Below are positions 2-27,198 of a DNA stretch of 43,511 nucleotides, in pieces (position 1 is the first letter of the stretch; every line of letters starts with the position of its first letter). The notes beneath the pieces are model-generated. The model searched no databases. It was not told the DNA's origin and saw only the letters and a list, made by a program, of their open reading frames with translations. Both the position numbers and the translations under genes were made by a program. The DNA comes from Bacteroidia bacterium (GTDB taxonomy: Bacteria; Bacteroidota; Bacteroidia; UKL13-3): the NCBI GenBank assembly GCA_023151275.1, contig JAKLJI010000002.1:224889-268399 (forward strand), in the 5' to 3' direction.

Positions 2-778
2 AATAACGACCTAGAAGTGCATCCGGGTTGGCTTGAACCACTCATTTCAAAAGCCGAACAACAACCTGATTTAGGCGCACTTCAACCCAAACTTCTTAAC
101 TACTTCGACCATTCTAAATTTGAATATGCAGGTGCTGCAGGAGGAAAAATGGACAAATATGGTTATCCTTTCCTGAGGGGCCGCGTTTTTCATGTTCTTG
201 AAGAGGATAATGGTCAATACAACCACGACGAAGAATTATTCTGGGCAAGTGGAGCTGCATTGATGTTAAGAAGAAGTGCATTGAAAGAGGTTGGTGAATT
301 TGATGAATTAATTGTTCACCACTTTGATGAAATTGATTTATGCTGGCGTCTGATTTTGGGCAATTACAGAATTGGTTATGCCGCAGATGCTGAAGTGTAC
401 CATATTGGTGGAGCAAGTATTAGCCCCAACAGCTACAAAAAAGTGTATTGGAACCACAGAAATTCTTTGTACATGTTACTGAAGAATTATGAATTTCAAT
501 CCATTTTAAGCCGCGTCAGTGTTCATGTTCTTTTGGATTGGATTCTGATGATTCGCTTTCTACTGGGTGGCCAATTCAAGCTTGTTGTTGCCTTGATGCA
601 TGCCCATACTTGGCTGCTGATAAATAGCCTAAAAATTAGGGTTCAACGAAAACGAGTTCAAAAAATCAGGAAAAGGACTGATAAAGAAACCGACCCTTTT
701 CTTTTTCAAGGTTCCATTGTTAAACAATTTTTTCTCCATAAAAAAGACACCTATACCGCATTAATTGAAGCACTATGA
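2..778 (+). CDS. Glycosyltransferase family 2 (5' end outside window)
   Basis: This is the C-terminal part of a GT-A fold, family 2 glycosyltransferase, probably a rhamnosyltransferase-like enzyme adding a sugar to a surface polysaccharide at the inner face of the membrane. The frame is open to the window edge and begins NNDLEVHPGWLEPL, which is the NxD (metal/nucleotide-sugar) motif followed by the usual PGWL segment. The GTG at 17 is therefore an internal Val codon and not the start. A second hallmark is the E-D-type block FDELIVHHFDEIDLCWRL, followed by a hydrophobic stretch near residues 175-200 that may be a membrane-associated helix. The stop overlaps the next start (ATGA), so translation is probably coupled to rfbC. 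The family is clear; the donor and acceptor sugars cannot be read from the sequence. Confidence 0.88.
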   Translation, partial: NNDLEVHPGWLEPLISKAEQQPDLGALQPKLLNYFDHSKFEYAGAAGGKMDKYGYPFLRGRVFHVLEEDNGQYNHDEELFWASGAALMLRRSALKEVGEFDELIVHHFDEIDLCWRLILGNYRIGYAADAEVYHIGGASISPNSYKKVYWNHRNSLYMLLKNYEFQSILSRVSVHVLLDWILMIRFLLGGQFKLVVALMHAHTWLLINSLKIRVQRKRVQKIRKRTDKETDPFLFQGSIVKQFFLHKKDTYTALIEAL

Positions 779-1341
779 TTATCCATAAAATTCATGAAGC
801 ACTAAACGGACTGATGGTATTTCAGCCTGAAGTATTTGAAGATGAAAGAGGATTTTTTACTGAAGTTTATAGAAAGGATCAATTTGTAGCCCATGGTATT
901 CCGGAAGAGTTTGTGCAAGATAATCACTCCAGATCTGGATATGGCGTTTTAAGAGGCTTGCATTTTCAATGGGAACCACCCATGGCAAAACTCATGCGAG
1001 TTACCTTTGGCGAGGCCTTTCTTGTTGCGGTGGATATCCGCAAAAACTCACCCAGCTTTGGTGATTGGTATGGGGAAATTGCAAGTGCCTCCAATAAAAA
1101 AATGGTATATGCTCCCGCCGGATTTGCACGCGGGTTTTGCGTATTGAGTGAGTTTGCAGAAATTCAATACAAATGCACCGGCCACTACAACAAAATGGCA
1201 GAATCCGGCATTCTTTGGAACGACCCGGCAATTGGAATAAAGTGGCCAATTGAAAATCCTCAATTATCAGACAAAGACAAAGTAGCTCAAACCCTTGAAC
1301 AATGGGCTGCCAAACCAGATTCAAATCATTTTCTGTTATGA
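775..1341 (+). CDS. rfbC: dTDP-4-dehydrorhamnose 3,5-epimerase (RmlC/RfbC)
   Basis: This cytosolic cupin-fold enzyme epimerises C3 and C5 of dTDP-4-keto-6-deoxyglucose, the third step to dTDP-L-rhamnose. The 188-residue length is normal for the family. The catalytic block QDNHSRSGYGVLRGLHFQ contains the base His63, followed by Lys72 in AKLMRV, and the later PAGFARGF block is also typical. It sits in an overlapping operon (ATGA with the glycosyltransferase before it, ATGA with the epimerase after it). The glucose-1-phosphate thymidylyltransferase and the 4,6-dehydratase of the pathway are not in the window and may lie upstream of it. Confidence 0.95.
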   Translation: MIIHKIHEALNGLMVFQPEVFEDERGFFTEVYRKDQFVAHGIPEEFVQDNHSRSGYGVLRGLHFQWEPPMAKLMRVTFGEAFLVAVDIRKNSPSFGDWYGEIASASNKKMVYAPAGFARGFCVLSEFAEIQYKCTGHYNKMAESGILWNDPAIGIKWPIENPQLSDKDKVAQTLEQWAAKPDSNHFLL

Positions 1342-2339
1342 AAAATCAACGCATTCTGATTCTAGGTGGAAGTGGCTATGTGGGTAGCTTTCTTAGTCCC
1401 TATTTGTACGACAAAGGCTATGAAGTTGAAGTTGTAGATATTGGTTGGTTTGGTCATGCCTTACCTGCATCTATTCCTGTGCGGGAAGATGACATTTTTA
1501 ATCTAACCCAACACGATCTCAAACATATTGATACCGTAATTTTTTTGGCCGGATTATCCAATGATCCCATGGCTGAATATTCACCGCAAAAAAACTTCAT
1601 TTACAATACTGCCATGCCCGCCTATATAGGCCACATGGCTAAGCTTGCAGGTGTAAAACGAATTCTCTTTGCTAGCAGTTGTTCGGTTTACGGATTCACA
1701 CACAATCAAACCTTTTCTGAAACGGATTTGGCATCTTGTGACTATCCGTATGGGGTATCCAAATTGCAAGGAGAACGAAGCTTATTGGCCCTTGCCGATG
1801 AAAACTTTCAGGTATTGTGTATCCGACAAGGCACATTAAGCGGTTATAGTCCACGCATGCGCCTCGACCTTGCCTTAAACACCATGTTTATGCGGGCCAT
1901 GAAGGACCAGGAAATTCAATTAAGCAATGAACGTATTTGGAGGCCTATACTTGGAACAAGTGATTTATGCCGGGCCTATGAATTGGCACTTGAACATGCC
2001 AATTGGAATGATTTATCGGTAGTAAATCTGGCATCGTTTAATGCCACAATTGGAGAACTTGCCGAACAAGTAGCTTTGTTTATTCAACGTGAAACTGGAA
2101 AATCAATAAGTATTCACGATAAAGGCATTCAGGATTACCGAAATTATAAAGTAAGCACCGATAAAATTAAAAACGGTTTGGGATTTCAAGCCCAGCAAAA
2201 TGTGGAATCTATTCTTAGAGATTTGATGAGCAATCTTGCTGAGTTTACACCCTTTGAGCAAGACCGATTTTACAATATTGAAGTATTCAAAAATAAATTA
2301 AACCAAGACGCACATGAAGATCATGTTAACAGGCGCTAA
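1338..2339 (+). CDS. NAD-dependent sugar-nucleotide epimerase/dehydratase (extended SDR)
   Basis: This is an extended short-chain dehydrogenase/reductase of 333 residues acting on a nucleotide sugar. The Rossmann motif GGSGYVGS lies at residues 10-17, the Ser of SSCSVYG near 114 and the catalytic Tyr138-x3-Lys142 in DYPYGVSK. The start is the ATG at 1338, which overlaps the rfbC stop as ATGA; the open frame runs 12 codons further upstream but only inside rfbC. The gene lies between rfbC and rfbD and overlaps rfbD by 26 bases, so it is clearly part of the same sugar pathway. A third SDR-type step is not needed for plain L-rhamnose, so the product may be a modified or different deoxysugar. The exact reaction is not recognisable. 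Confidence 0.85.
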   Translation: MKNQRILILGGSGYVGSFLSPYLYDKGYEVEVVDIGWFGHALPASIPVREDDIFNLTQHDLKHIDTVIFLAGLSNDPMAEYSPQKNFIYNTAMPAYIGHMAKLAGVKRILFASSCSVYGFTHNQTFSETDLASCDYPYGVSKLQGERSLLALADENFQVLCIRQGTLSGYSPRMRLDLALNTMFMRAMKDQEIQLSNERIWRPILGTSDLCRAYELALEHANWNDLSVVNLASFNATIGELAEQVALFIQRETGKSISIHDKGIQDYRNYKVSTDKIKNGLGFQAQQNVESILRDLMSNLAEFTPFEQDRFYNIEVFKNKLNQDAHEDHVNRR

Positions 2340-3180
2340 CGGACAGTTGGGCTCGGAGATTTTAGAGGTATTAACACAGGATGGACATGAGGTAATTGCA
2401 TTAACCCATGACGATTTGGAATTATCCGATTTATTTCGAATCAAAGAATTAATCATTGAGCATCTACCACAGGTATTAATCAACACTGCTGCCTACCACA
2501 ACGTGAATGAGTGCGAAAAAAATCCACAAAAAGCCTATCGCATTAATGCCGAGGCTCCAGGATTTATGGCTAGAATGTGCAATTACCTGCATATTAAATT
2601 TATTCATTTCAGTACTGATTATGTTTTCAGTGGCAACTTGAATCGTCCCTACAATGAAGGAGATAGCCCTGATCCTTTAAATGTGTACGGCCTATCTAAA
2701 CTAAAAGGAGAAAACCTGATTCGCTCAAGCTCTTGCAAACAATTGATTATTCGGATCAGCGGGATCTATGGGAAAAATCCATGTCGCGCTAAAAAAGGTC
2801 TCAACTTTGTAAAGCTTATGCTAGATAAAGCCTCAAGGGGTGAAACAATTCAAGTTGTTGATGACCAGATAGTGGCTCCTACTCCGGTAAGCGAGATTGC
2901 AGCAACACTTCCAGAATTAATACATAAAGACGTACATGGCTTGTTACATATTAGCACAAGTGGCGAATGTTCTTGGTACGATTATGCTCGGGAAATTTTT
3001 GCGTATACCGGAATTGAAGCCAATTTAATTCCCGGTAAAAGCAGCGACAGTGCAATAAAACGTCCTTCCTATTCTGTGCTTGATAACCGCTTGATGATGA
3101 GCAAAGGCTTTGGCAAAATGCCAAGCTGGAAAGATGCTCTCCACAAGTACCTGGATGAAATAAAAGAACCTGCATATTAA
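2314..3180 (+). CDS. rfbD: dTDP-4-dehydrorhamnose reductase (RmlD/RfbD)
   Basis: This cytosolic SDR enzyme catalyses the last step of dTDP-L-rhamnose synthesis, reduction of the 4-keto group. The 288-residue length is standard. The N-terminal nucleotide-binding motif MLTGANGQLGSEI, the Thr-Asp-Tyr segment HFSTDYVFSG and the catalytic YGLSKLKGE (YxxxK) are all present. The C-terminal LDNRLM segment is also characteristic of RfbD. The start overlaps the upstream epimerase by 26 bases. The next gene begins only one base after the stop, which places a cytochrome gene unexpectedly at the end of a polysaccharide operon. Confidence 0.93.
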   Translation: MKIMLTGANGQLGSEILEVLTQDGHEVIALTHDDLELSDLFRIKELIIEHLPQVLINTAAYHNVNECEKNPQKAYRINAEAPGFMARMCNYLHIKFIHFSTDYVFSGNLNRPYNEGDSPDPLNVYGLSKLKGENLIRSSSCKQLIIRISGIYGKNPCRAKKGLNFVKLMLDKASRGETIQVVDDQIVAPTPVSEIAATLPELIHKDVHGLLHISTSGECSWYDYAREIFAYTGIEANLIPGKSSDSAIKRPSYSVLDNRLMMSKGFGKMPSWKDALHKYLDEIKEPAY

Positions 3181-3181
3181 C

Positions 3182-3586
3182 GTGAAAGCAACCCATATTC
3201 ACCTGATTTGGGGAACCTTGCTTATCTCTTGGATAGTTTATCTGGGAGTGTTGCTTGCTGAACCCGTAAAATCTGAATCTTTATTGAATCAAACTGAACA
3301 ACAGGGTAAACAACTCTGGCAAAAACACAATTGCCAGAGTTGTCACCAATTGTTTGGCCTTGGTGGATATTTGGGCCCCGACTTAACAAGCATCCAAAAC
3401 AAAATCCCCAACCTGGATGCCTTCCAAATTCTGGTCAATACCGGTAATCAAACCATGCCGGCATACAACTTAACCCCACAAGAGGCAGATGCCTTATACC
3501 AATTTTTATTGGCACAAAATAGACCCGGACCAATCACTCCACTCAACCATAAGGCCGATTTAAACGGCTGGATTTCGAAAAAATAG
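3182..3586 (+). CDS. Membrane-anchored cytochrome c, NorC-like
   Basis: This 134-residue mono-haem cytochrome c has one N-terminal membrane helix (about residues 8-26), so its haem domain faces the periplasm. The haem is attached at CQSCH (51-55). The following FGLGGYLGPDLTS resembles the NorC segment after the haem motif, and the Met of QTMPAY (Met92) is the likely sixth ligand. In nitric oxide reductase, NorC passes electrons from soluble donors to NorB; the immediate downstream gene here is NorB-like (2-base gap), so the pair likely forms one complex. The start is a GTG one base after rfbD with no convincing ribosome-binding site. Function as NorC is inferred; the alternative is the electron-input subunit of another haem-copper enzyme. 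Confidence 0.82.
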   Translation: MKATHIHLIWGTLLISWIVYLGVLLAEPVKSESLLNQTEQQGKQLWQKHNCQSCHQLFGLGGYLGPDLTSIQNKIPNLDAFQILVNTGNQTMPAYNLTPQEADALYQFLLAQNRPGPITPLNHKADLNGWISKK

Positions 3587-3587
3587 T

Positions 3588-4895
3588 ATGCAAAAGTCAT
3601 TGGGAAAGCTTTACTTAATATTCGGACTTTTTTGTCTTATTTTAACCCTTTTCTTTGGGGTAATGGCAGCTCATAGCTATATCATTCCGGGCTTTTGGAA
3701 GGACCTATTGGGATTTCAACAACTTCGACCCATTCATGCAAGCTCGGCTTTGTTCTGGATATTGGTATCGGCGAATGGGCTAGTGATACATTTTCAAACC
3801 AAATCAAGAAACAAATGGATTGACAACTTTGCATTGGCACTTCTGGCAATAGCCTATGTATCCATGATAATCGCCTACGTAAAACAAGATTTTGGTGGTC
3901 GTGAATATTGGGAAGCCGGTTGGCCGTTTTCAAGCTTGGTTCTGGCTGCTTTCGTGCTATTATTCATCAACGGGCTTCGGTTTTTCATAGGAACCAAACC
4001 AAGAAAAGTTTACCATTGGATGTGGCTAAGTGGTTCTAGCTTTTTGGTATTATGCATGGCTGAAAATTTCCTTTGGTTGATACCCGGAATTCATGCCGAT
4101 ACAGTAAAAGACCTAACCTTGCAATGGAAAGCAAATGGAGCATTTGTTGGCGCATGGAACCAATTGATTTATGGAGTTTCCTTTCAATTGATGGAAAAAA
4201 TTGGAGGGAAAGATGCTGTCGTTGAAAGTAAAACTGCCTATGGCATGTTCTTCTTAGGTTTATTCAATTTAATATTCAATTGGGGCCACCATGTGTACCT
4301 TGTTCCTACTTACGCTTATGTGAAATTTATTGGCTACACGGTAAGCATGACGGAGTGGATTTTCTTTATCCGAATTTTTACTGACTGGAAAAAAAGTCTT
4401 CCCGCTGAACTCTTCAAACTTCGCAAACAAGAAGGTACTTATTGGTTTTTAGTGGCCTCAGAAACCTGGATAATGCTCAACATGGGATTGGCTATATTGA
4501 TGTCAATTCCGGCTATCAACCTTTACACCCACGGAACTCATATTACAGTGGCCCATTCTATGGGAGCAACCATTGGAATAAATAGCATGATTTTACTAGG
4601 TGGAATTTGGTTTATGGCATTCGGAAATAAGCCTATGAGTAAATGGAATCGATTTTGGTTTTGGCTCAGCCAATCCTCATTGCTTGTTTTGTGGTTAAGT
4701 TTATTAATGGCCGGAATAATCAAATCAATTTGGAATAGTGAAGGTCAAAAACACGCATTTGCCTTCATGATGCAGCAATCAGGAATCGCATTTAAACTAT
4801 TTGCCTGGTCGGGAAGCTTGCTAATGCTGGCTTTAGGGGCTATCGGAATTCAACTGCTGCTTAAGCTGATAAAGACAGAGCCTAAATTAAACTAA
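3588..4895 (+). CDS. NorB-like haem-copper superfamily catalytic subunit, divergent metal ligands
   Basis: This polytopic membrane protein of 435 residues (about 12 helices) belongs to the nitric-oxide-reductase branch of the haem-copper oxidase superfamily. Visible ligands are His50 in LRPIHASS (low-spin haem, helix II), the helix VII pair His234-His235 in WGHHVYL and His323 in THITVAHSM (high-spin haem). Against my recollection of classical cNOR, the remaining Fe_B histidine (cNOR His207) aligns with Asn183, the two helix VI glutamates align with Val187 and Asn191, and the second low-spin haem His (two residues after the haem b3 ligand) is Met325. The spacing from helix VI to the HH pair fits without gaps. 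It pairs with the NorC-like gene upstream; norD and norQ are absent. NO reduction is plausible but unproven. Confidence 0.8.
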   Translation: MQKSLGKLYLIFGLFCLILTLFFGVMAAHSYIIPGFWKDLLGFQQLRPIHASSALFWILVSANGLVIHFQTKSRNKWIDNFALALLAIAYVSMIIAYVKQDFGGREYWEAGWPFSSLVLAAFVLLFINGLRFFIGTKPRKVYHWMWLSGSSFLVLCMAENFLWLIPGIHADTVKDLTLQWKANGAFVGAWNQLIYGVSFQLMEKIGGKDAVVESKTAYGMFFLGLFNLIFNWGHHVYLVPTYAYVKFIGYTVSMTEWIFFIRIFTDWKKSLPAELFKLRKQEGTYWFLVASETWIMLNMGLAILMSIPAINLYTHGTHITVAHSMGATIGINSMILLGGIWFMAFGNKPMSKWNRFWFWLSQSSLLVLWLSLLMAGIIKSIWNSEGQKHAFAFMMQQSGIAFKLFAWSGSLLMLALGAIGIQLLLKLIKTEPKLN

Positions 4896-5042: not shown

Positions 5043-6560
5043 TTAGTTCAATTCGTTTTCTAGTTCAGCTTCCGACAAAACATTCAATGGATTAGGTTCA
5101 TCTTCCAAAAAGTGACAACCCAATGATTGCGTTCTGCGACTCGCAGCTTCCACCAAGAGTTTTGCAGTTTGAATTTTGTTATCAAGAGGTGTAAAAGTAA
5201 CGACTTCATTATTTAGGAAATCTGACTCCTCCTCCATGTAATTCAGCTCTGCAGCCACTTTATTCAAGCCAGCTTGGGTTCTAACGATACCTGCATACTG
5301 GGTAAGCATCTCTCCTATTTTCTTTGCTGTACGTGAATAATTTTCATTACGCTGCTGATAACCTATGAGTTGGTTTTTGGGCAAACTAGGAATTGAATGA
5401 TGTTCAGCCTGCCACTTTTTCGCAAGCAACCAGGTACTTGCCAAAATCTCCATGAGTGAATTCGATGCAAGCCGATTTGCCCCATGAAGTCCGGTACAAG
5501 CCACCTCTCCCAATGCATATAAACCTTCAAGCGTTGTCTCACCCGATGTACTTGCAGCTATCCCACCGCAAAAATAGTGAGCACCCGGAGCCACCGGAAC
5601 TTTTCCCAAAGCAAGAAATCCATCTTTCCTAAACCAAGAATAAAGGGCAGGAAAATGTGATTTCATTTTCAATTCAGAAATTTGGCTTATATCCAGCCAA
5701 ACAAAATTTGAACCGCTTTGCTGCATCGTATAAAACACACCCTGACTCACCAAATCTCGCGGTGCCAACGAACCCAAAGGATGTCTGGACCTCATGAATG
5801 GATGGAAATCCTGACTAAGCAACTCGGCTCCGGCACCACGCAATGCCTCGGTTATCAATTGTCCCTTTTGGGGATCTTTCCCCATGAAAAGAGTTGGATG
5901 AAACTGGACAAATTCAAGATCATCAACCTGGGCACCAGCCCTATTTGCAATGGCTAGGGCCTCACCGGTTGAATGAGGTGCGTTGGAATGAAATCCAAAC
6001 AAGGCTGAACCACCTCCTGTTGCAAAAACCACTGCATGACCATAAATCCGATATACTTTTCGGGAAGATTCGTGCAGAAGTTCAACACCTTTCACTTGTT
6101 TATTCTCTTGAATCAAATCAAGCAAACGATACCCTTCAAAGCGTTTTAAATTGGTTTGCTTCTCAAGTTGGTCATAAACCACCTGAGTGATATGCTTTCC
6201 CGTTTCATCGCCAATATGAACCACCCTTGGTACGGAATGTCCACCTTCGAGAGCCTTATGAAAATCGGGATTAAAACCGCGCGATTTCCAATAAGCCAGT
6301 GCTGGCAAGGACGCTTCAAGAAGTTCTTTCACAACAGACTCCTTGTTATGAAAGGATCCCGCAACCAAAGTATCTTTTACATGTGCTTCAAAATCGTTTT
6401 CATCCAAAGGAATGGCAATACCACCCTTGGCTTTGTAACTGCTGGAACCTGAAGGACCTCCGGCGGCAAATTGCCAAATCTCCCAGCTCGCAGGTATCTG
6501 AGCCGCAAACATGCCCGCTGCAAGTCCAGAACCAATAACAAGTACACGTGGCGAATTCAT
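5043..6560 (-). CDS. nadB: L-aspartate oxidase (NadB)
   Basis: This FAD enzyme oxidises L-aspartate to iminoaspartate, the first step of de novo NAD synthesis; NadA uses the product. The start is the ATG at 6560, one base after the nadA stop, which puts the FAD motif VLVIGSGLAAG at residues 7-16 as expected; the frame extends 21 codons upstream but only inside nadA. Other hallmarks are SSSYKAKGGIAIP, the substrate region FVQFHPT, ITEALRGAGAEL and GEVACTGLHGANRLASNSL. At 505 residues it is slightly shorter than the E. coli enzyme, mainly in the C-terminal helical domain. It is co-transcribed with nadA; nadC is not in the window. Confidence 0.96.
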   Translation of the reverse strand: MNSPRVLVIGSGLAAGMFAAQIPASWEIWQFAAGGPSGSSSYKAKGGIAIPLDENDFEAHVKDTLVAGSFHNKESVVKELLEASLPALAYWKSRGFNPDFHKALEGGHSVPRVVHIGDETGKHITQVVYDQLEKQTNLKRFEGYRLLDLIQENKQVKGVELLHESSRKVYRIYGHAVVFATGGGSALFGFHSNAPHSTGEALAIANRAGAQVDDLEFVQFHPTLFMGKDPQKGQLITEALRGAGAELLSQDFHPFMRSRHPLGSLAPRDLVSQGVFYTMQQSGSNFVWLDISQISELKMKSHFPALYSWFRKDGFLALGKVPVAPGAHYFCGGIAASTSGETTLEGLYALGEVACTGLHGANRLASNSLMEILASTWLLAKKWQAEHHSIPSLPKNQLIGYQQRNENYSRTAKKIGEMLTQYAGIVRTQAGLNKVAAELNYMEEESDFLNNEVVTFTPLDNKIQTAKLLVEAASRRTQSLGCHFLEDEPNPLNVLSEAELENELN

Positions 6561-6561
6561 C

Positions 6562-7524
6562 TCATACAAATTCAAGCATACGTTCAACAGGCTTAATCGC
6601 CCGCTCACGGGTAGCTTCATCAAGTTGAATTAAAAAGGCTTGTTCCTCATCAGAACCAATGGCATTTAGCGCATTCACAATACCAAGCAACGTAGTTTCT
6701 TTCATGTATTTGCAATGCACACAAGGAGTCAGAAATTCCTTATCGGGATTAGCTGCTTTGAGTGTAAAAGCCAAATCACACTCAGATGCTAAAAGAAACT
6801 TCTCCGATTTACTCCTTTTCACATAACTCAAAATATCATTCGTGCTTCCCAAAACCCCTTTACGCGCATCCAATTGCTCCTTCACCAATTGATTGGGAAC
6901 TTCCCAATGCAATAAAATATCAGCTTCCGGATCAGATGTAAACATTTCATTTTTGAACTGTTCATGTACTTCACACGTACCCTTCCAAAGAATCAATTCT
7001 TTGCCGGTTTCACGTTTGATGACCTCTGCCAAATTTTGTCCCATGTAGTAATCGGGAACAAATATGATTTTATCACTAGGAATACTTCGAGCTATTTCAA
7101 GTGCATTCCGTGAGGTGCAACAAATATCCAATTCACATTTCGTTTCGGCATAGGTGTTGATATACCCCATTACAGGAACTCCGGGATACTGTGCCTTCAA
7201 TTGGCGCACATCCTCTGCAGTAATTGAAGAAGCAAGCGAGCAGCCGGCTTCAGGAGCCGCCATAAAAATAGGGGCATTGGGATTGAGCAATGCTGCTGTT
7301 TCTGCCATAAACCGAACTCCACAAAAAAGAATTCGTTCAGCCTTTGCATCCCTGGCAAATAAACTTAGGCCCAGCGAGTCGCCGGTAAAATCAGCAATAC
7401 CTCCATCCTTTTCCAACAATTGAATTGCAGGTGGCATGTAATAATGTGCAAGCAGCGTAACGTTTTTTTCTTTCTTTAACTGCTTTATTTTCTCGATAAG
7501 AAGCGATTGTTCGGGACTAACCAT
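6562..7524 (-). CDS. nadA: Quinolinate synthase (NadA)
   Basis: This [4Fe-4S] enzyme condenses iminoaspartate with dihydroxyacetone phosphate to quinolinate. The 320-residue length is in the normal range. The three cluster cysteines are visible as Cys95 (PEAGCSLAS), Cys184 (GTCEVHE) and Cys271 (CVHCKYM), and the N-terminal LLAHYYMPPAIQ substrate motif is typical. The gene is first in a two-gene operon, with nadB starting one base after its stop. A -7-like element lies four bases upstream of the ATG, so the message may be leaderless. It is divergent from the MbnP gene across an 82-base gap. The assignment is secure. Confidence 0.96.
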   Translation of the reverse strand: MVSPEQSLLIEKIKQLKKEKNVTLLAHYYMPPAIQLLEKDGGIADFTGDSLGLSLFARDAKAERILFCGVRFMAETAALLNPNAPIFMAAPEAGCSLASSITAEDVRQLKAQYPGVPVMGYINTYAETKCELDICCTSRNALEIARSIPSDKIIFVPDYYMGQNLAEVIKRETGKELILWKGTCEVHEQFKNEMFTSDPEADILLHWEVPNQLVKEQLDARKGVLGSTNDILSYVKRSKSEKFLLASECDLAFTLKAANPDKEFLTPCVHCKYMKETTLLGIVNALNAIGSDEEQAFLIQLDEATRERAIKPVERMLEFV

Positions 7525-7606: not shown

Positions 7607-8335
7607 ATGAAACTGTTAAAAAGCTATTGCAGTTTAGCTGTCATATTAGCCTTGTTGTTGATTTTAGGCTGCAAAAAAGAAACACCAATTCCTAGCCCTG
7701 AAACCGGGAACCTTGTTTTGAAAATTAACTACACATTTAATAACCAAAAATTAATTCCCGACAGTTTGATATTCCGAACGCCAACCGGATATCTTGTTTC
7801 TGTGAGTAGGCTTGAATATTACCTTTCTGGTTTCAAAATAGGCGCAACAAACACAAACAATTGGAATTATCTAAATGGTTTAAAACCGGAAGGAAATACA
7901 CTTTTACTAACAGATTTAGCTCCGGGCGATTATCAATCCATCCAGTTTTCAATTGGGCTAATTCCCGAATTAAACCAGCATGGAAAGATTAGTGGAACAT
8001 TTGAAAACAATCAAATGATCTGGCCTACAGAAATGGGAGGAGGCTATCATTTTCTGAAATTTGAAGGCAGGTATAAAAAAGAAGAACGCAATCCGGGAGG
8101 CTATGCAATTCATTTGGGAACGGATAGTTTTTTGATTCAGCATCAAGCTTTACCAGTTCAATTCAGTATCCATAAAAATCAAACCGATACACTTCATTTA
8201 ACCATGCAGGTTGAGGAATGGCTTAGTCTTCCTTGGCCATGGGATTTTGAGAAAGACGGGAATTATACTATGGGGATTTCTGAGGCCATGAAAAAAGTAA
8301 TGCAAAATGGAAACAAGGTATTTAAAGTGGATTAG
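7607..8335 (+). CDS. MbnP-family copper-associated lipoprotein
   Basis: This is a 242-residue exported lipoprotein; the signal peptide ends in a lipobox (ILGC, Cys22). The body matches the MbnP-like domain: RLEYYLSGFKI, then a FSIGL segment, then MIWPTEMGGGYHFLKFEGRY and YAIHLGTD. In the described methanotroph system, MbnP is a periplasmic copper-binding protein in which a Trp is converted to kynurenine by the dihaem partner MbnH. Here the partner gene overlaps by 29 bases, which strongly suggests that the two proteins work together. No methanobactin precursor or biosynthesis gene is present, so a role in copper handling is inferred from family and context. Confidence 0.82.
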   Translation: MKLLKSYCSLAVILALLLILGCKKETPIPSPETGNLVLKINYTFNNQKLIPDSLIFRTPTGYLVSVSRLEYYLSGFKIGATNTNNWNYLNGLKPEGNTLLLTDLAPGDYQSIQFSIGLIPELNQHGKISGTFENNQMIWPTEMGGGYHFLKFEGRYKKEERNPGGYAIHLGTDSFLIQHQALPVQFSIHKNQTDTLHLTMQVEEWLSLPWPWDFEKDGNYTMGISEAMKKVMQNGNKVFKVD

Positions 8336-9353
8336 TTTTGGATTGCTAACCACAATCGTATTTGGACTTGCACAATGCAAGAAAGAAATCGCAAGCACTG
8401 AAAAAGTTTATGCCCCAAGTTATTACCTGCCTGAGCTACCGCAAGGGTATCCACCACTTATCAATTCAGAAAAAAATCCATTGACCAAGGAGGGTGAAAA
8501 ACTAGGAGCGTATTTATATTCAGACCCCATTTTAAGCAGCAATGGAATGACCTGTACAAGTTGCCATCAGCCCGCACTTTCTTGGTCTGGCCCCTTGTAT
8601 GTAAATCCAAAAGGTATAAAAACCAGTGTTCCCATTCATTTGAATTTAGGTTTTAGAACCGTATTTAATTGGAATGGTTCAGCACCAGATTTGGACCTTG
8701 TGGCCAAAGGTGATTTTGAACCTGAATTTTTCAATACCGACTCAAACGAATTAAAATTAAAACTGCAAGCCAACAGCCTGTATCAAGGATTATTTTTTGA
8801 GGCATTCGGTGTGAAAAAAGTTCATCAGTTGACTTTTGATTCCATTAAAACACTGGCCAGCTATGCTCTTGCCCAACACCTAAGGGCCCGAATTGCCAAA
8901 CCTTCAACTTTTGATTTGTACAGACAGCGACGCGGCACCATAACACCGGAAATTTATAGAGGTATGCTTTTGTTCTTCTCCGAAAAAGCAGATTGTTTTC
9001 ATTGCCATATGGAACCCATGTACTGCGATAATTCGGCCCATAACAATGGACTTCAGGACAACCATGAAGGAGTTGACAAAGGATTGGAACTAGTAACTGG
9101 CAAAGCATCAGATCGAGGAAAATTCATCACGCCAACCTTAAGAAATTTATCCAAAACGGGTCCGTACATGCACGATGGTCGGTTTACTACATTGGAAGAG
9201 GTTATTGAGTTTTATGATTCGGGCATCAAAAACTCCGAAACCCTCGATCCTATTATGTTTAAACGCCATGAGGATTTGAAATTAAACCTGACTCAACAGG
9301 ATAAAGCTGACCTGGTTTCTTTTTTGAAGTCACTTAATAGTTTGGAAGAATAA
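8307..9353 (+). CDS. Dihaem cytochrome-c peroxidase-family protein, MbnH-like
   Basis: This 348-residue dihaem protein belongs to the CcpA/MauG/MbnH superfamily. It has a lipoprotein-type signal (GLAQC, Cys24) and two covalent haem sites, CTSCH at 83-87 and CFHCH at 230-234, followed by the family block ITPTLRNLSKTGPYMHDGRF and TLEEVIEFYDSG. It overlaps the end of the MbnP-family gene by 29 bases, the arrangement expected for an MbnH that oxidatively modifies its MbnP partner. A plain periplasmic H2O2 peroxidase is the alternative, but the neighbour argues for MbnH. It should sit in the periplasm or on the outer membrane with its lipid anchor. Confidence 0.87.
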   Translation: METRYLKWISFGLLTTIVFGLAQCKKEIASTEKVYAPSYYLPELPQGYPPLINSEKNPLTKEGEKLGAYLYSDPILSSNGMTCTSCHQPALSWSGPLYVNPKGIKTSVPIHLNLGFRTVFNWNGSAPDLDLVAKGDFEPEFFNTDSNELKLKLQANSLYQGLFFEAFGVKKVHQLTFDSIKTLASYALAQHLRARIAKPSTFDLYRQRRGTITPEIYRGMLLFFSEKADCFHCHMEPMYCDNSAHNNGLQDNHEGVDKGLELVTGKASDRGKFITPTLRNLSKTGPYMHDGRFTTLEEVIEFYDSGIKNSETLDPIMFKRHEDLKLNLTQQDKADLVSFLKSLNSLEE

Positions 9354-22209: not shown

Positions 22210-25200
22210 TCAGCGCATGAGATATATCTTCCCAACACCATTTGTAAACAGGCCCTCTTCACCTGAAGATTTAGCAGTTCGATGCTCCAACTCATTACCC
22301 TTCAATCGTGTCAAAACCTGATAAAGGTAAACGCCATTGGCAAGCGGGTCGCCATATTGGTCGCGCCCATCCCAATACCATTCCGAGATATTGTTTCCAA
22401 TACGTATGTTTCCAAATTCTTCCTTAGTTACCTCCTTAACAACTCGTCCATCAACAGTCAGAATGCGAATGAGTAACTGGTCTGGAATAAATTCACCTGT
22501 CAATGTAAACACAAAGCGCATTTGTGTGGTAAAGGGATTGGGATAGGGATAAAAATGGGTGATTGTACTTTTGCCAAGTACGTTAAAATCAACTTGATAT
22601 TCGGTATTACCGGCTGCATTGCCACTTGCATCTTTAGCTTGAACACGAAGCGTGTATAAACCATCTGCAAGGCGTGATGGTTTATATTCCAGGGCTGCCT
22701 CATTTGATTTCTCCTCTGCCGGAAAGAAGCTCACCTCCGGACTATTTAGGTTGATGGGGAGGTAATCAAACTCTCTAGGTTTACGAAGCCATAAAGAGAA
22801 CGTTGATGTATCTTTTTGAAGTAAAAAGGCATTATTATCTTTTGAAGTAATTCGGATTCGGGGTGATGGAGAAACCAATTCGCCATTTACAATACGTTGG
22901 CCATCAAAACGAATATCAAGCAAGGGGTTTTGTCTATCTGCAAGAATATCCACTTGCCTCTGAGCAATATTGTTGTTGAAATTGAATTCAACCGGATTGT
23001 TATCCGGATTCGCAATCAACTCTACCCCATGCCTACCACTTGAAATTTTCGAATCCAATTTGATTGAAACGGGCACCACTGCATCTGCTTTTATCGGAGC
23101 GATAATTGACTTATTTTGTTGAACCTGAATCCGATTCGCATTGGCCAATGAACTTTGAATGAAGATGGAATCCGTTGCGAATGGAGAAACATTCCTCAAT
23201 CCAATTCTCCAGCTCAAACTATCGCCTTGCTGAATCTGTTCTCCTTTCCATTCATTAACAGCAGCAGGATCCCAGGCCAACTCTGCCGATGGTGCATAAT
23301 GAACAGCCCATGATTTAAAATAAGTGGGAGTTCTTGAGCTTGAATCAACCGAGCTTAATTTCAATTTTAGATACGGATAAATGGATGCATCAATAAATGA
23401 AATATCCAATTTACTTCCACTCAAATTAGAAATTACTACTGAATCTTTGCCTTGTTTATTGGTAACGAGTAAGCTCACCCAGGAGCGCCCTGAAGGTGGA
23501 TTTTCCGCATCCTCTTTTACAAACTCCAAGGTATTCCATGCTTTTGCAGGACCGGCAGGGCTAGTGGTAAAATCTCCTTCAAACCACTTAAGTAAAAACG
23601 ACTTTCTTATTCGAAGGTATTTTTCATCCTGGGGTTGATCGGCTGCAGGAGGAAGACTCACCAATCCTTCAAGTTCGTTGTTTATGACAGTGTCTTCAGT
23701 AGCTGTTCCTAATGCACCACCTTTTACGCCAATAACTGCCCAAGCTGTATTTGGGCTTTTCACCTGGGAAACAACTGTTGATCCAATGGCTGAGAATATA
23801 GACTTGGTAGCAGGAAGCCAATTATTAACATTGCTTGAATAGCGTGAAAATAAAGCTACAAAATAGCCATCAGGAACAGAATCAATCAATCGCTTCAATT
23901 CTGTTTCTCCATCTGCAAAATTCGTATTGAAAGGATAATACCTTAAGCTTCTATCGCCCTTATTGGCTTGAATAAACGCGCAATTAAACGGATAATTGGG
24001 TAATTCATAAGGCATGTCAACTTGGAAGGGTTCAAAGACCAAAGCAACAGTTCCCTGCGAAATACAATTGCCTACCAAAGCATTCAGCAGGTAGGGTATT
24101 GTAACGCCCATGCGTCTATGATCCCAACGTCGATTTTCAATGCCAAGAATTAATTCGTTATCGGTAAACTCCCAGGTCTTGTTCGAATCATTAAGCACAA
24201 CAAAACGAGAGGCGCTAATTTGTTTGGTTTGATTGTAACCTGCCTGCCGAAAGCCTTTATCTGCATTAGGAATCCAGGTAAAAGAAGATGTTTGCCAATC
24301 CCCACCTTGATTGGAGGGCAAATCCATCCGGGCTCTCCAAAACCAAATGGTGGTATCGGATTGTTTTTGTTCTATTGAAAATGAAGCGAGCGCTGCGCCA
24401 CTGATTATATCCGACTTCTTCAACAAGGGACTATTGAAAAGCGGGGTTGTATCCACTTCAAACAAATAGGCTTGCTGACCCGAAAACAGGTTATTGTTCT
24501 GCACCCAAAGCTTCACGGAATCGCCGGAATGCATGGCAAATGGAGGCGGGAATAAAAGCCGAATACCTGTTCCTTTCAGGAAGTACTCAAAACTCAAATT
24601 GTTGTTGGAAAAATTGGCTTCATTGACCAATTGATTTGGGTTGAGTCGAATTTGAAAACGATTGATACCGGTATGTTGTTCCTTCACATCTTTCACCCAA
24701 TAGTAAACAGTATCCCTGAACAAAGGCGATGGAATTTTGAACTCAGGAAATGTGATTTGTGAGTTATCTGGTAAGGTACGTGTTATGGAAACTTCAATAG
24801 AATCTGAAATGGCCTTTCCTGCATTGTCAACAACAATAGCTAAAGCAAAGGAATCGGATTGAGCGGTTGAAGACTCCGGGAAAATAAAAGCTGAATTTGA
24901 GTTCAGTAAAAAATCGGGCAATGCCGGACTATACAATTTGAATGCGGGATCGCCCTGAAGTAACAATTGCAGCGCATGAGAGCGCGCATACAAATCGCCG
25001 GTTGCGGTAGATTGAAGTAGCGCTTCTTGAATAATTCTTCCTACTCCTTTTCCATAATGCAAACCGTTTATGGCCGTGTAAAAGGAGTTCATTTGACTGA
25101 ACAGGTTATTGGTTAAAGTTAGGTTACTATGCGCCAACCAACCAATTGCACCTTTATTTGCTGCACATAAAAAATCCTTACCATACACCAACCCTGTTCC

Positions 25201-27198
25201 CCCCGGATCAACATCATTGGCATTTCCAATATTGCATCCATTGAAATAATAGAATGCCGGCTTTTGAGTTGACTGTAAGTTTCCAATAGAACCGAAATCC
25301 ATATCCAACACCGTAAGCGAGCCATGTCCTAAAAAGGTAAGCATAGAGATCCCATTGTTTTGAATGGCAATTAACTTTTCACGGATATTATCTTGTGTTG
25401 GGGCTGTAACATTTTTATGGAAAGAACTCACAAAGGCCCCTGTTGGTGCCCTTTTGATGATGTTTTCCATGGCATTCACCTGATTTTTGAATGGCAATTG
25501 CTCCGAAAAATAATCTTCACCTCCACTGATATGCAGGTACTGTTTTCTCCAGAAAGCGATGGAATCTTCATTCTCAATCCGAATTAATTTGTTCAGGTAG
25601 TTTAGCACTTCGGCATTGGTACTTGCGGGAATTCGTCCGGTAGCCAAAGCAGGAACCCCTTTATCATTATCAAACCCGGAGCTAAACATATTGTCGGAAG
25701 AAGGTTCACCAATTGCCGGAACTAGATTTTTGGCATAATTCTCTGGTGTCAATCGCAACAAACTGTTTTGATAACCGCGTCCCAATAACAACAAATACTG
25801 AGGTTTTGCGGATTGATTTTGGTACAAATACTTAACAAAACGTCTAATGGCTAAGGGATGATGATGACCATAGAAAAAGGTATTGGCCAGGTCTTCTGCA
25901 TAAACAAGCAGTGTTTTGTAGGAAGCGGAACGATAGTTCCTGTAAGCTTCTGCAGATTGGCTCAGTTGTCGGCTGCTTACTATCAAATAGGAATAGGCTT
26001 CATTCGGATCAATCAAACCAAAAGTAACTCTGGATAAATTAGAAACAGGAATGATTTCTTCGGATTTGGCGAGGTAGAGCGAAGATGATAAATCTGATTC
26101 TACTACCAATTGCCAATTCAATCCTTGAGTGGAACTGCGGAAGAGCTTTTGACTTGAAGTATCAAGAATAAAAGGCAGGCTTCCTGAAATTAAACCTTGA
26201 TACATTTTCCGTGTTGAGGAAACCTGATTTTGTAAAAAAGCTCCCGAAAAATTCTGGGAAAGGTATTCCAAATGAATGTATGAAATTCCATTTAAATCAG
26301 AAGTAACACCAAGGTCGTTAACCACATCAAAGCGAACAAAAAAATCAGGCCCGAGCATTGAAGCGGGAATTGTAACACTTACCAAGCGTTCTCCATAGCC
26401 TCTGTAGGTTGTATCAGCTACAAGTGTTAAGTTGTTTTGTTGATTTCCGGCAAAAATGCGAACATGGTGATTGGGGAGGTTGGGGTCTGGAAGGAAAAAA
26501 TCAGAAGAACCAATAAGCTTAATTTGAAGCTTTGCCATTCCTGCCTGGACGGGATTTTGCAAGGAGAAAGGATAAATTCGCGATTGGCCTTGGGAAATAA
26601 GGTAAGATATCCAACCCTCTGCATCTCCATAGTCAGAAAGGTAATAACGTTCGCTGGCGGGTAAATTCGCCCCTCGGTAGTATTCCTCCTGCGGACAAAA
26701 CCAAAGCTGTTTGAGTACTTGTGTTTCCTGACCTAATGAGCCTGCAGGAAGAATTGTTTCTTGATAACGCTTTGGAGGATTAGAAGCAGTTGTTGAAGAA
26801 CGTACCAAAAAGTACCAAGCCGTATCCGAAAAAAGTGATTTTTGCGTATGGGGTTGTTCCTGGGCTTGCCTGTAGAGTTCCTGATCTAACTTTCCATCGT
26901 TGGCAAAGCCAAGAAAAACTAGAGATTGGCCAGCCCTTACAAAGGAATCCTGTGGATTAGAAACATAAAATGCGTGTTCTCTTCCATTTCTAAATAAGCG
27001 TAAATCCGGTATTGGCCAATCCAATGGATTTAAGCCAGCGCGAGCAAAAGAAACCGAATCGATTTGAAATACACCGTTTGAAGGAATAGGAAATTTCAAT
27101 GCAGGAGCATCTTTTTCAATCCACTCGAAGCCATACTGCGCCTTTGCATTAAACAGAGCAGCAACAAATAAGAATGCAAAGAGTAGGTGTTTTCTCAT
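22210..27198 (-). CDS. C25 (gingipain-type) peptidase-like surface protein, PorU2-like
   Basis: This 1662-residue exported protein has a Sec signal (1-20, ending AKAQ). The N-terminal region (PIPSNGVFQIDSVSFARAGL) is the beta-rich segment seen in PorU-type sortases. A Peptidase_C25 domain spans about 390-760, with LLLLGRGY, PALATGRIPAS and the catalytic dyad His625 (LGHGSL) and Cys655 (FNGCNIG). CARDB/Ig-like modules follow (NNLSFEYF, NNIAQRQVDI) and the C-terminus is a FlgD/Ig-like or T9SS-type sorting region (YPYPNPFTTQMRFVFTL, WDGRDQYGDPLANGVY). PorU removes the sorting domain of type IX secretion cargo at the cell surface; the length and C-terminal modules fit a PorU2-type paralogue. A secreted protease is the alternative. 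A strong terminator separates it from the upstream dipeptidase gene. Confidence 0.82.
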   Translation of the reverse strand: MRKHLLFAFLFVAALFNAKAQYGFEWIEKDAPALKFPIPSNGVFQIDSVSFARAGLNPLDWPIPDLRLFRNGREHAFYVSNPQDSFVRAGQSLVFLGFANDGKLDQELYRQAQEQPHTQKSLFSDTAWYFLVRSSTTASNPPKRYQETILPAGSLGQETQVLKQLWFCPQEEYYRGANLPASERYYLSDYGDAEGWISYLISQGQSRIYPFSLQNPVQAGMAKLQIKLIGSSDFFLPDPNLPNHHVRIFAGNQQNNLTLVADTTYRGYGERLVSVTIPASMLGPDFFVRFDVVNDLGVTSDLNGISYIHLEYLSQNFSGAFLQNQVSSTRKMYQGLISGSLPFILDTSSQKLFRSSTQGLNWQLVVESDLSSSLYLAKSEEIIPVSNLSRVTFGLIDPNEAYSYLIVSSRQLSQSAEAYRNYRSASYKTLLVYAEDLANTFFYGHHHPLAIRRFVKYLYQNQSAKPQYLLLLGRGYQNSLLRLTPENYAKNLVPAIGEPSSDNMFSSGFDNDKGVPALATGRIPASTNAEVLNYLNKLIRIENEDSIAFWRKQYLHISGGEDYFSEQLPFKNQVNAMENIIKRAPTGAFVSSFHKNVTAPTQDNIREKLIAIQNNGISMLTFLGHGSLTVLDMDFGSIGNLQSTQKPAFYYFNGCNIGNANDVDPGGTGLVYGKDFLCAANKGAIGWLAHSNLTLTNNLFSQMNSFYTAINGLHYGKGVGRIIQEALLQSTATGDLYARSHALQLLLQGDPAFKLYSPALPDFLLNSNSAFIFPESSTAQSDSFALAIVVDNAGKAISDSIEVSITRTLPDNSQITFPEFKIPSPLFRDTVYYWVKDVKEQHTGINRFQIRLNPNQLVNEANFSNNNLSFEYFLKGTGIRLLFPPPFAMHSGDSVKLWVQNNNLFSGQQAYLFEVDTTPLFNSPLLKKSDIISGAALASFSIEQKQSDTTIWFWRARMDLPSNQGGDWQTSSFTWIPNADKGFRQAGYNQTKQISASRFVVLNDSNKTWEFTDNELILGIENRRWDHRRMGVTIPYLLNALVGNCISQGTVALVFEPFQVDMPYELPNYPFNCAFIQANKGDRSLRYYPFNTNFADGETELKRLIDSVPDGYFVALFSRYSSNVNNWLPATKSIFSAIGSTVVSQVKSPNTAWAVIGVKGGALGTATEDTVINNELEGLVSLPPAADQPQDEKYLRIRKSFLLKWFEGDFTTSPAGPAKAWNTLEFVKEDAENPPSGRSWVSLLVTNKQGKDSVVISNLSGSKLDISFIDASIYPYLKLKLSSVDSSSRTPTYFKSWAVHYAPSAELAWDPAAVNEWKGEQIQQGDSLSWRIGLRNVSPFATDSIFIQSSLANANRIQVQQNKSIIAPIKADAVVPVSIKLDSKISSGRHGVELIANPDNNPVEFNFNNNIAQRQVDILADRQNPLLDIRFDGQRIVNGELVSPSPRIRITSKDNNAFLLQKDTSTFSLWLRKPREFDYLPINLNSPEVSFFPAEEKSNEAALEYKPSRLADGLYTLRVQAKDASGNAAGNTEYQVDFNVLGKSTITHFYPYPNPFTTQMRFVFTLTGEFIPDQLLIRILTVDGRVVKEVTKEEFGNIRIGNNISEWYWDGRDQYGDPLANGVYLYQVLTRLKGNELEHRTAKSSGEEGLFTNGVGKIYLMR

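Follow-up and report, generated by a model that had tools for sequence, protein, structure and literature searches.

This locus raises the question of whether a NorB-like protein that departs from the known ligand sets at its low-spin haem and its second-metal site is still an NO reductase (NOR). The window, which is the whole stretch of 43,511 nucleotides analyzed from a Bacteroidia bacterium, carries the gene a single base downstream of the stop codon of a NorC-like ORF (Table 1). Pfam detected COX1 in the product (PF00115; 86.2 bits against a cut-off of 34.8) and no other domain. A codon check confirmed His50, Asn183, Val187, Asn191, His234, His235, His323 and Met325, and a frame error was ruled out, as the frame is open and the relatives agree. 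Ligand positions are given in P. aeruginosa cNOR numbering, in which we take His60, His207 and His349 to be the numbers of the corresponding histidines. When aligned with Bacteroidota cNOR, Asn183 pairs with the FeB His of helix VI, Val187 and Asn191 pair with the two glutamates of that helix (Glu211 and Glu215), and Met325 pairs with the second His of the helix X HxH motif; the profile comparison with cNOR structures agreed. A slip of the helix VI alignment was ruled out, because residues 179 to 188 are ungapped and Trp190 pairs with a cNOR Trp. Glu106, Glu109 and Glu256 occupy the positions of Glu135, Glu138 and Glu280; the numbers of these glutamates and of Glu211 and Glu215 follow passages of PMC3431322 and PMC4816578. 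Gln179 takes the place of a Trp that cNOR and qNOR carry four residues before the FeB His, and that is described for qNOR as conserved and near the metal. The sequence-only reading had put the four substituted residues at these cNOR positions with His50, His234/His235 and His323 kept, and the codon check and the alignment agree with it; the helix alignment demonstrated no conserved His or Glu at the helix VI site. Homologues that share Met325 are referred to below as the Met325 family.

Table 1. Coordinates of the genes and residue positions discussed, numbered from the first letter of the window.
Feature	Position	Strand	Remarks
NorC-like subunit, GTG start	3182..3586	+	Pfam cytochrome c; homologue directly before NorB-like gene in 75/89 loci
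NorB-like haem-copper subunit, Met325 family	3588..4895	+	435 aa; Pfam, structure search, trees
His50, helix II low-spin haem b ligand position	3735..3737	+	101/101
Gln179-Trp180-Lys181	4122..4130	+	each 101/101
Asn183, helix VI FeB His position	4134..4136	+	variable in family
Val187 and Asn191, Glu211 (FeB ligand) and Glu215 positions	4146..4160	+	alignment
His234-His235, two remaining FeB-site histidines	4287..4292	+	101/101
Glu256, Glu280 position	4353..4355	+	101/101; candidate third ligand of a putative 2-His-1-carboxylate site
His323 (haem b3 ligand position), Ser324, Met325 (low-spin haem ligand position)	4554..4562	+	
nadB (L-aspartate oxidase) and nadA (quinolinate synthase), convergent neighbours	5043..7524	-	
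MbnP-like protein and MbnH-like di-haem enzyme	7607..9353	+	MbnH-like score below NCBIfam cut-off

A search of solved structures with the single sequence yielded two matches, both of them NorB chains of cNOR (4xyd, 3o0r). The eight chains that a profile search matched at E 0.01 belonged to cNOR, cbb3 and qNOR, and none was from the B family. The AF2 model made for the window protein (mean pLDDT 79.5, pTM 0.85, with weak spots over residues 161-180 and 211-280, where block means fall to 50-68) had its best fold match in cNOR (VIA Z 40.1 and 38.2), tied with cbb3 (Z 38.7-40.0). By fold and profile match, the protein is a member of the C-type branch of the haem-copper oxidoreductase superfamily. 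The membership is clear, yet the ligand set is incomplete: four residues (His50, His234, His235 and His323) are kept of the His sextet by which a passage of PMC3413370 defines the superfamily.

Two trees were built, with the labels cNOR, qNOR and cbb3 assigned from partner genes, domains and length; several database records name cNOR a 'cbb3-type subunit I'. In the first (35 members, 13 cNOR, 5 qNOR, 5 cbb3 and one A-type), the family formed one clade (SH-aLRT 100, stem 2.04), cNOR and qNOR joined each other with the Met325 family excluded (SH-aLRT 100), and the three NOR-like groups were joined against cbb3 with a support of 81. In the second (37 rows), the family was recovered at 100/99 and cNOR plus qNOR, without the family, likewise at 100/99. 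The window protein lies on a long branch in both trees (1.5-1.6 changes per column), and the tree program flags meeting long branches, for which reason no order is claimed for the deepest splits. Sequence and fold thus place the Met325 family with cNOR, qNOR and cbb3. The Pfam, structure and tree results bear out a catalytic subunit that is NOR-like but divergent and is paired with a NorC-like protein, and the clade of its own and the incomplete ligand set bear out that it is no ordinary cNOR; the family did not cluster with ordinary cNOR, and the ligands were not all conserved.

The likeness to cNOR (NorCB; 3o0r, 4xyd) covers the NorC-NorB pair, the fold, four of the six His positions, the Glu135, Glu138 and Glu280 positions and the Ca2+ loop, whereas the identity is 19-20% in the structure alignment, His207, Glu211 and Glu215 are missing, Met stands for His349, NorQ is absent beside the family gene in 88 of 89 loci, and the family is a separate clade whose stem measures roughly 2 changes per column. 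CcoN of the cbb3 oxidases shares the C-type fold and a haem c subunit as the electron entry, but the family is one CuB-type His short, has Met at the low-spin haem position, is served by a single short NorC-like cytochrome and stands apart in the tree. A NorB-like core is shared with qNOR and Nod, the latter also being short of one coordinating His; both are fused proteins, whereas the window has a 435-aa COX1 protein alone and a separate NorC-like ORF. Membership in qNOR was ruled out by the tree, in which all five qNOR included group with cNOR in a clade that leaves out the Met325 family, and by the lack of a fused cytochrome-like N-terminal domain. The eNOR, sNOR, gNOR and nNOR are NOR families with altered active sites, compared here by description. 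A passage of PMC11388526 relates sNOR, gNOR, nNOR, eNOR and bNOR to the B-family oxidases, and a home among these is therefore unlikely for a C-type family whose sequence and fold are those of cNOR, qNOR and cbb3. The suggestion that the protein is a NOR with an altered FeB site holds as far as divergence and lost ligands go, and its filing with those families is improbable.

A set of 101 distinct homologues was collected, with pairwise identities of 31-99.8% (median 44%) and 94 clusters at 90%; identical copies, the partial genes of loci L045, L046 and L100, the sequences of genomes G666 and G729, a second copy in G483 and the copy of L166 were left out. Relatives at 40-46% identity were found in nine named Bacteroidota records. 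Besides the residues so marked in Table 1, Arg47, Glu106, Glu159, Asn191, Tyr195, Tyr237, His323, Met325 and Asn332 were invariant in 101/101, and Val187 (99/101), His318 (96/101) and Glu109 (93/101) were nearly so. Site 183 was Asn in 51, Tyr in 39, Leu in 4, Gly in 3, Ala in 2, and Ser and Met in one each; no member had His at 183 or Glu at 187. A FastTree family tree built without that column required at least 12 changes at site 183. Asn183 as a conserved ligand was ruled out, Asn being present in just 51 members. Because the site varies, the third FeB His is lost in the family and not swapped for a conserved Asn, and the constant marks of the family, as judged from the aligned residues, are Met325 and the kept residues. 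The 'Asn-type' NOR clade raised in the sequence-only reading accordingly gives way to a clade marked by Met325.

The family is unevenly spread over the phylum. With the window protein alone as the query, 8 of 395 genomes of a phylum-wide draw matched at E 1e-30 or better, whereas a profile of 14 members (E 1e-30) found the family in 77 of 395 genomes of the same class and in 26 of the 64 genomes of the window's own taxonomic family, its own genome included. Plasmid-borne copies were rejected: among the best 12 of 207 matching plasmid records, the top identity was 26.6% and the label was cbb3-type subunit I.

Around the family genes, 89 loci were compared, with the near-duplicates L037, L039, L102, L103, L174 and L175, L181 (its twin L087 likewise absent), L166 and the short-flank loci L087-L100 left out. 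Neighbours were counted by BLAST clusters, and as many flanks stop at the end of a contig the counts are lower bounds; gene names come from the scanned cluster representatives, and the loci are not independent (L127 and L129 are near-identical, as are L163 and L168). A NorC-like gene was present in 79/89 loci, mostly in the position given in Table 1. The NorC-like protein of the window has one N-terminal membrane helix (by eye), a CxxCH haem site (Cys51, Cys54, His55), a GLGGY loop with Gly61 and Tyr63 at the positions of the Ca2+ ligands Gly71 and Tyr73, and Met92 as the likely haem ligand. Since the CxxCH site and the Gly and Tyr of the Ca loop are present, the electron input is therefore probably kept. 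No NorC-like gene was found in the remaining 10 loci, some of them cut by contig ends, and 8 of these had no CxxCH protein among the ORFs kept. Near L038, L040, L116, L164, L165, L169 and L170 no CxxCH protein was seen, and several of the family proteins there are longer (up to 541 aa).

The same loci demonstrated a marked difference in NorQ, which was found in 1/89 family loci, whereas 9 of the 12 distinct loci of canonical cNOR had it within flanks of just 1.5 kb; these counts cover the genes beside the loci. The lone positive locus (L031) also carries a canonical NorC, NorB, RIC, NorQ and NorD, that is, a canonical cNOR operon of its own. No NorQ or NorD match was found in the window and the stretches of its own genome that were examined. 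According to passages of PMC9976466, NorQ and NorD load FeB in P. denitrificans, cNOR made without norQDEF is stable, haem-filled, FeB-free and inactive, and qNOR needs neither protein.

The class draw was further searched for clade II NosZ (TIGR04246) and canonical NOR, which were detected in 129 and 30 of the 395 genomes, respectively; the canonical-NOR search (E 1e-45) considered no more than three candidates in any one genome, and its 30/395 may be low. NosZ was present in 64/77 family carriers compared to 65/318 non-carriers (Fisher p 9e-25, odds ratio 19), and in 21/30 carriers of canonical NOR (odds ratio 5.6). In the window's taxonomic family, NosZ was present in 24/26 carriers compared to 3/30 non-carriers: of 56 genomes, 24 had both genes, 2 the Met325 family alone, 3 NosZ alone and 27 neither (p 3e-10), with the eight genomes left out of the 64 all being non-carriers and the NosZ of G769, two fragments below the cut-off, counted as present. 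The same pattern was observed inside genera, such as 7/1/1/8 and 3/0/0/5 in the same order. Both genes lay on one contig in 16 of the 64 double carriers, 15 of them within 20 kb, and in the window's genome NosZ lies 7.7 kb upstream on the same strand, together with NosD. Among the 129 NosZ carriers, 64 had the Met325 family, 21 a detected canonical NOR and 10 both. It was also observed that 54 of the 129 have neither.

Canonical cNOR or qNOR was detected in 11/77 carriers compared to 19/318 non-carriers (p 0.03), so simple replacement by the family is not shown, and the two are not strict alternatives. The window's genome has three PF00115 genes: one is the Met325-family gene, another is of the A type and the third is a cbb3 gene. 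Matches to NirK were obtained in 16/77 carriers (13 over the cut-off) and 7/80 controls (4 over the cut-off), the seven controls with NirK being 5 of 54 NosZ-only genomes and 2 of 26 others. A search for NirS gave 1/77 carriers, 0/80 controls and 0/14 named genomes, and neither NirK nor NirS was found in the window's genome. The partner of the Met325 family is NosZ rather than Nir.

The other neighbours were diverse. Tyrosine phenol-lyase/tryptophanase-type lyases were present in 36/89 loci, proline dehydrogenase (ProDH) in 29 (directly after the NorB-like gene in 24), NadB in 26 and NadA in 25; the window nadB scored 405 bits, below the NCBIfam cut-off of 452.75, and NadA scored above the Pfam cut-off. 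The lyases, ProDH and NadAB are not NO-related, and their presence suggests that the regulon is a wide anaerobic one and not confined to NO. PTPS was found at 18 loci, NrdJ at 14, NosD at 9, NosZ at 6 and qNOR at 3 (two of these being L127 and L129). MbnP was present at 19 and MbnH at 21 of the 89 loci, and the pair, at about a fifth of loci, may at a guess supply copper to NosZ. The lyase genes, frequently a tandem of two, immediately precede the NorCB-like pair (L032, L035, L104, L106, L107, L110, L111, L113 and others). In the window (775-3180), dTDP-sugar/epimerase genes come directly before the NorC gene, as similar ones do in related genomes (L033, L109, L176-L179). A 602-aa protein (U602) without a Pfam or NCBIfam match occurs at 22/89 loci (for example, L033:1807-3612), with a copy in the window's own genome (G000:C2:79562-81298, in L194). 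Its model resembles the FMN TIM-barrel enzymes FabX, PfaD and nitronate monooxygenase, and its invariant Cys402, Cys419, Cys455 and Cys457 could hold an Fe-S cluster. A further cluster without a Pfam or NCBIfam match, present at 12/89 loci, comprises a 409-aa protein, membrane-bound by eye, with an HAHSH motif (L032:19445-20671). The minus strand of the window (22210-27198) encodes a 1662-aa protein with a gingipain-type Peptidase_C25 domain.

The explanation that we favour, and to which we give close to an even chance, is a two-subunit haem-copper enzyme, fed by cytochrome c and of the same type as cNOR and cbb3 but remodelled at the second-metal site, which reduces NO to N2O for the clade II NosZ of the same cell. 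Electrons would enter at haem c of the NorC-like subunit, take a Ca2+-bridged path to haem b, held by His50 and by Met325 in place of the usual second His, and pass to haem b3 (His323), as in cNOR. Glu106 stands at the position of Glu135, a Ca2+ ligand according to a passage of PMC4816578. The second-metal site is short of two of the four cNOR ligands (His207 and Glu211), and what remains would most likely be a 2-His-1-carboxylate site of His234, His235 and Glu256, with the metal loaded without a NorQ/NorD pair of the enzyme's own. This arrangement is preferred because Glu256 is invariant, His207 and Glu211 are gone, and a cNOR simulation described in PMC3431322 has one water between FeB and Glu280; an empty metal site is its main rival. 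The N2O produced would then be reduced by NosZ. We infer haem binding, the identity of the metal and the ligand role of Glu256, and likewise NO as the substrate, for which the grounds are the fold, the NorC-like partner and the NosZ linkage. NO-related neighbours, namely the iron-sulphur repair protein RIC (18/89), Crp/Fnr (27/89) and Rrf2 (17/89), count in favour of NO reduction. Counted against it are the missing His207, Glu211 and Glu215 together with a NorQ that is not adjacent, the 10 loci without a NorC-like gene, the 13 of 77 carriers in which no NosZ was detected, the canonical NOR present in some carriers, the neighbours that are not NO-related, and the scarcity of NirK and NirS, by which most carriers would make no NO through a known Nir. 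The NosZ linkage points to NO/N2O metabolism; the reaction itself stays uncertain, as it had been called at the outset.

The protein might instead be a haem-only relative with no second metal, a reading that we regard as unlikely but worth serious attention. It would bind NO, or a different diatomic molecule, to sense it, to scavenge it or to transfer electrons in the service of N2O respiration, and would form no N-N bond. The loss of His207, Glu211 and Glu215, the unconstrained site 183, the lack of NorQ near 88 of the 89 loci and a NosZ linkage tighter than that of canonical NOR all fit such a protein, yet the invariance of His234, His235 and Glu256 would be odd for an empty site, and qNOR, too, does without NorQ and NorD. 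Rather less probable is a reductase of another nitrogen compound (such as hydroxylamine or nitrite) or of O2 that uses the same electron route. Its distal pocket is changed, with Gln179 for the Trp near the metal and invariant Lys181 and Asn191, and few carriers have NirK or NirS; against this, the sequence features indicate no given substrate, the link to NosZ speaks for an enzyme that acts together with N2O metabolism, and C-type O2 reductases keep three CuB histidines.

An Asn for an FeB His also marks nitric oxide dismutase (Nod), and Flavobacteriia carry Nod-like genes. Passages of PMC3413370 and PMC5552932 describe Nod as having one coordinating His changed to Asn and one Glu near the centre changed to Gln, and mention such a gene in Muricauda. 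Nod falls within qNOR, has a fused hydrophilic domain, keeps all other histidines and has no apparent way to take external electrons, according to PMC3413370, whereas the Met325 family has a NorC-like partner and Met325, its site 183 varies, and trees without Nod sequences set it outside the cNOR plus qNOR clade, Nod being compared by description. Membership in Nod was ruled out on the Asn count at 183, the lack of a fused domain and the position outside that clade, and a Nod relative is very improbable. Hardly credible at all is a decaying, inactive NorB: ligands have been lost and the window copy sits on its long branch, but about 40 residues are invariant over the 101 sequences, the frames are open in most members, and the NorC-like partner and the neighbourhood are conserved.

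A search of the open-licence PubMed Central literature gave no description of the Met325 family, which is apparently an undescribed branch of the NO reductase/oxidase superfamily. According to passages of PMC12569097, Bacteroidota account for 53% of the nosZ-bearing genomes that lack nir, and the occurrence of nir and nosZ without nor, in 9% of the Bacteroidota studied, is unexplained. The family was probably passed over there, because sequences without conserved ligand-binding domains were, by the same passages, excluded. A wider claim, which we put forward tentatively and with clearly less than even confidence, is that this is a new Bacteroidota haem-copper family with a His/Met low-spin haem and a rebuilt binuclear site, which either holds a 2-His-1-Glu metal that is put in place without NorQD or lacks the second metal altogether, and that the family serves as the main NOR of many N2O-respirers that appear to be NOR-less. 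As NosZ usually accompanies it, the Met325 family may be the enzyme by which many N2O consumers handle NO and which has gone unrecognized. Should the family reduce NO, a major NOR is missing from the maps of N2O sources and sinks that are drawn from genomes; should it not, the invariant Met at the low-spin haem and the missing FeB ligand would make it a natural experiment on the requirements of the NOR binuclear site.
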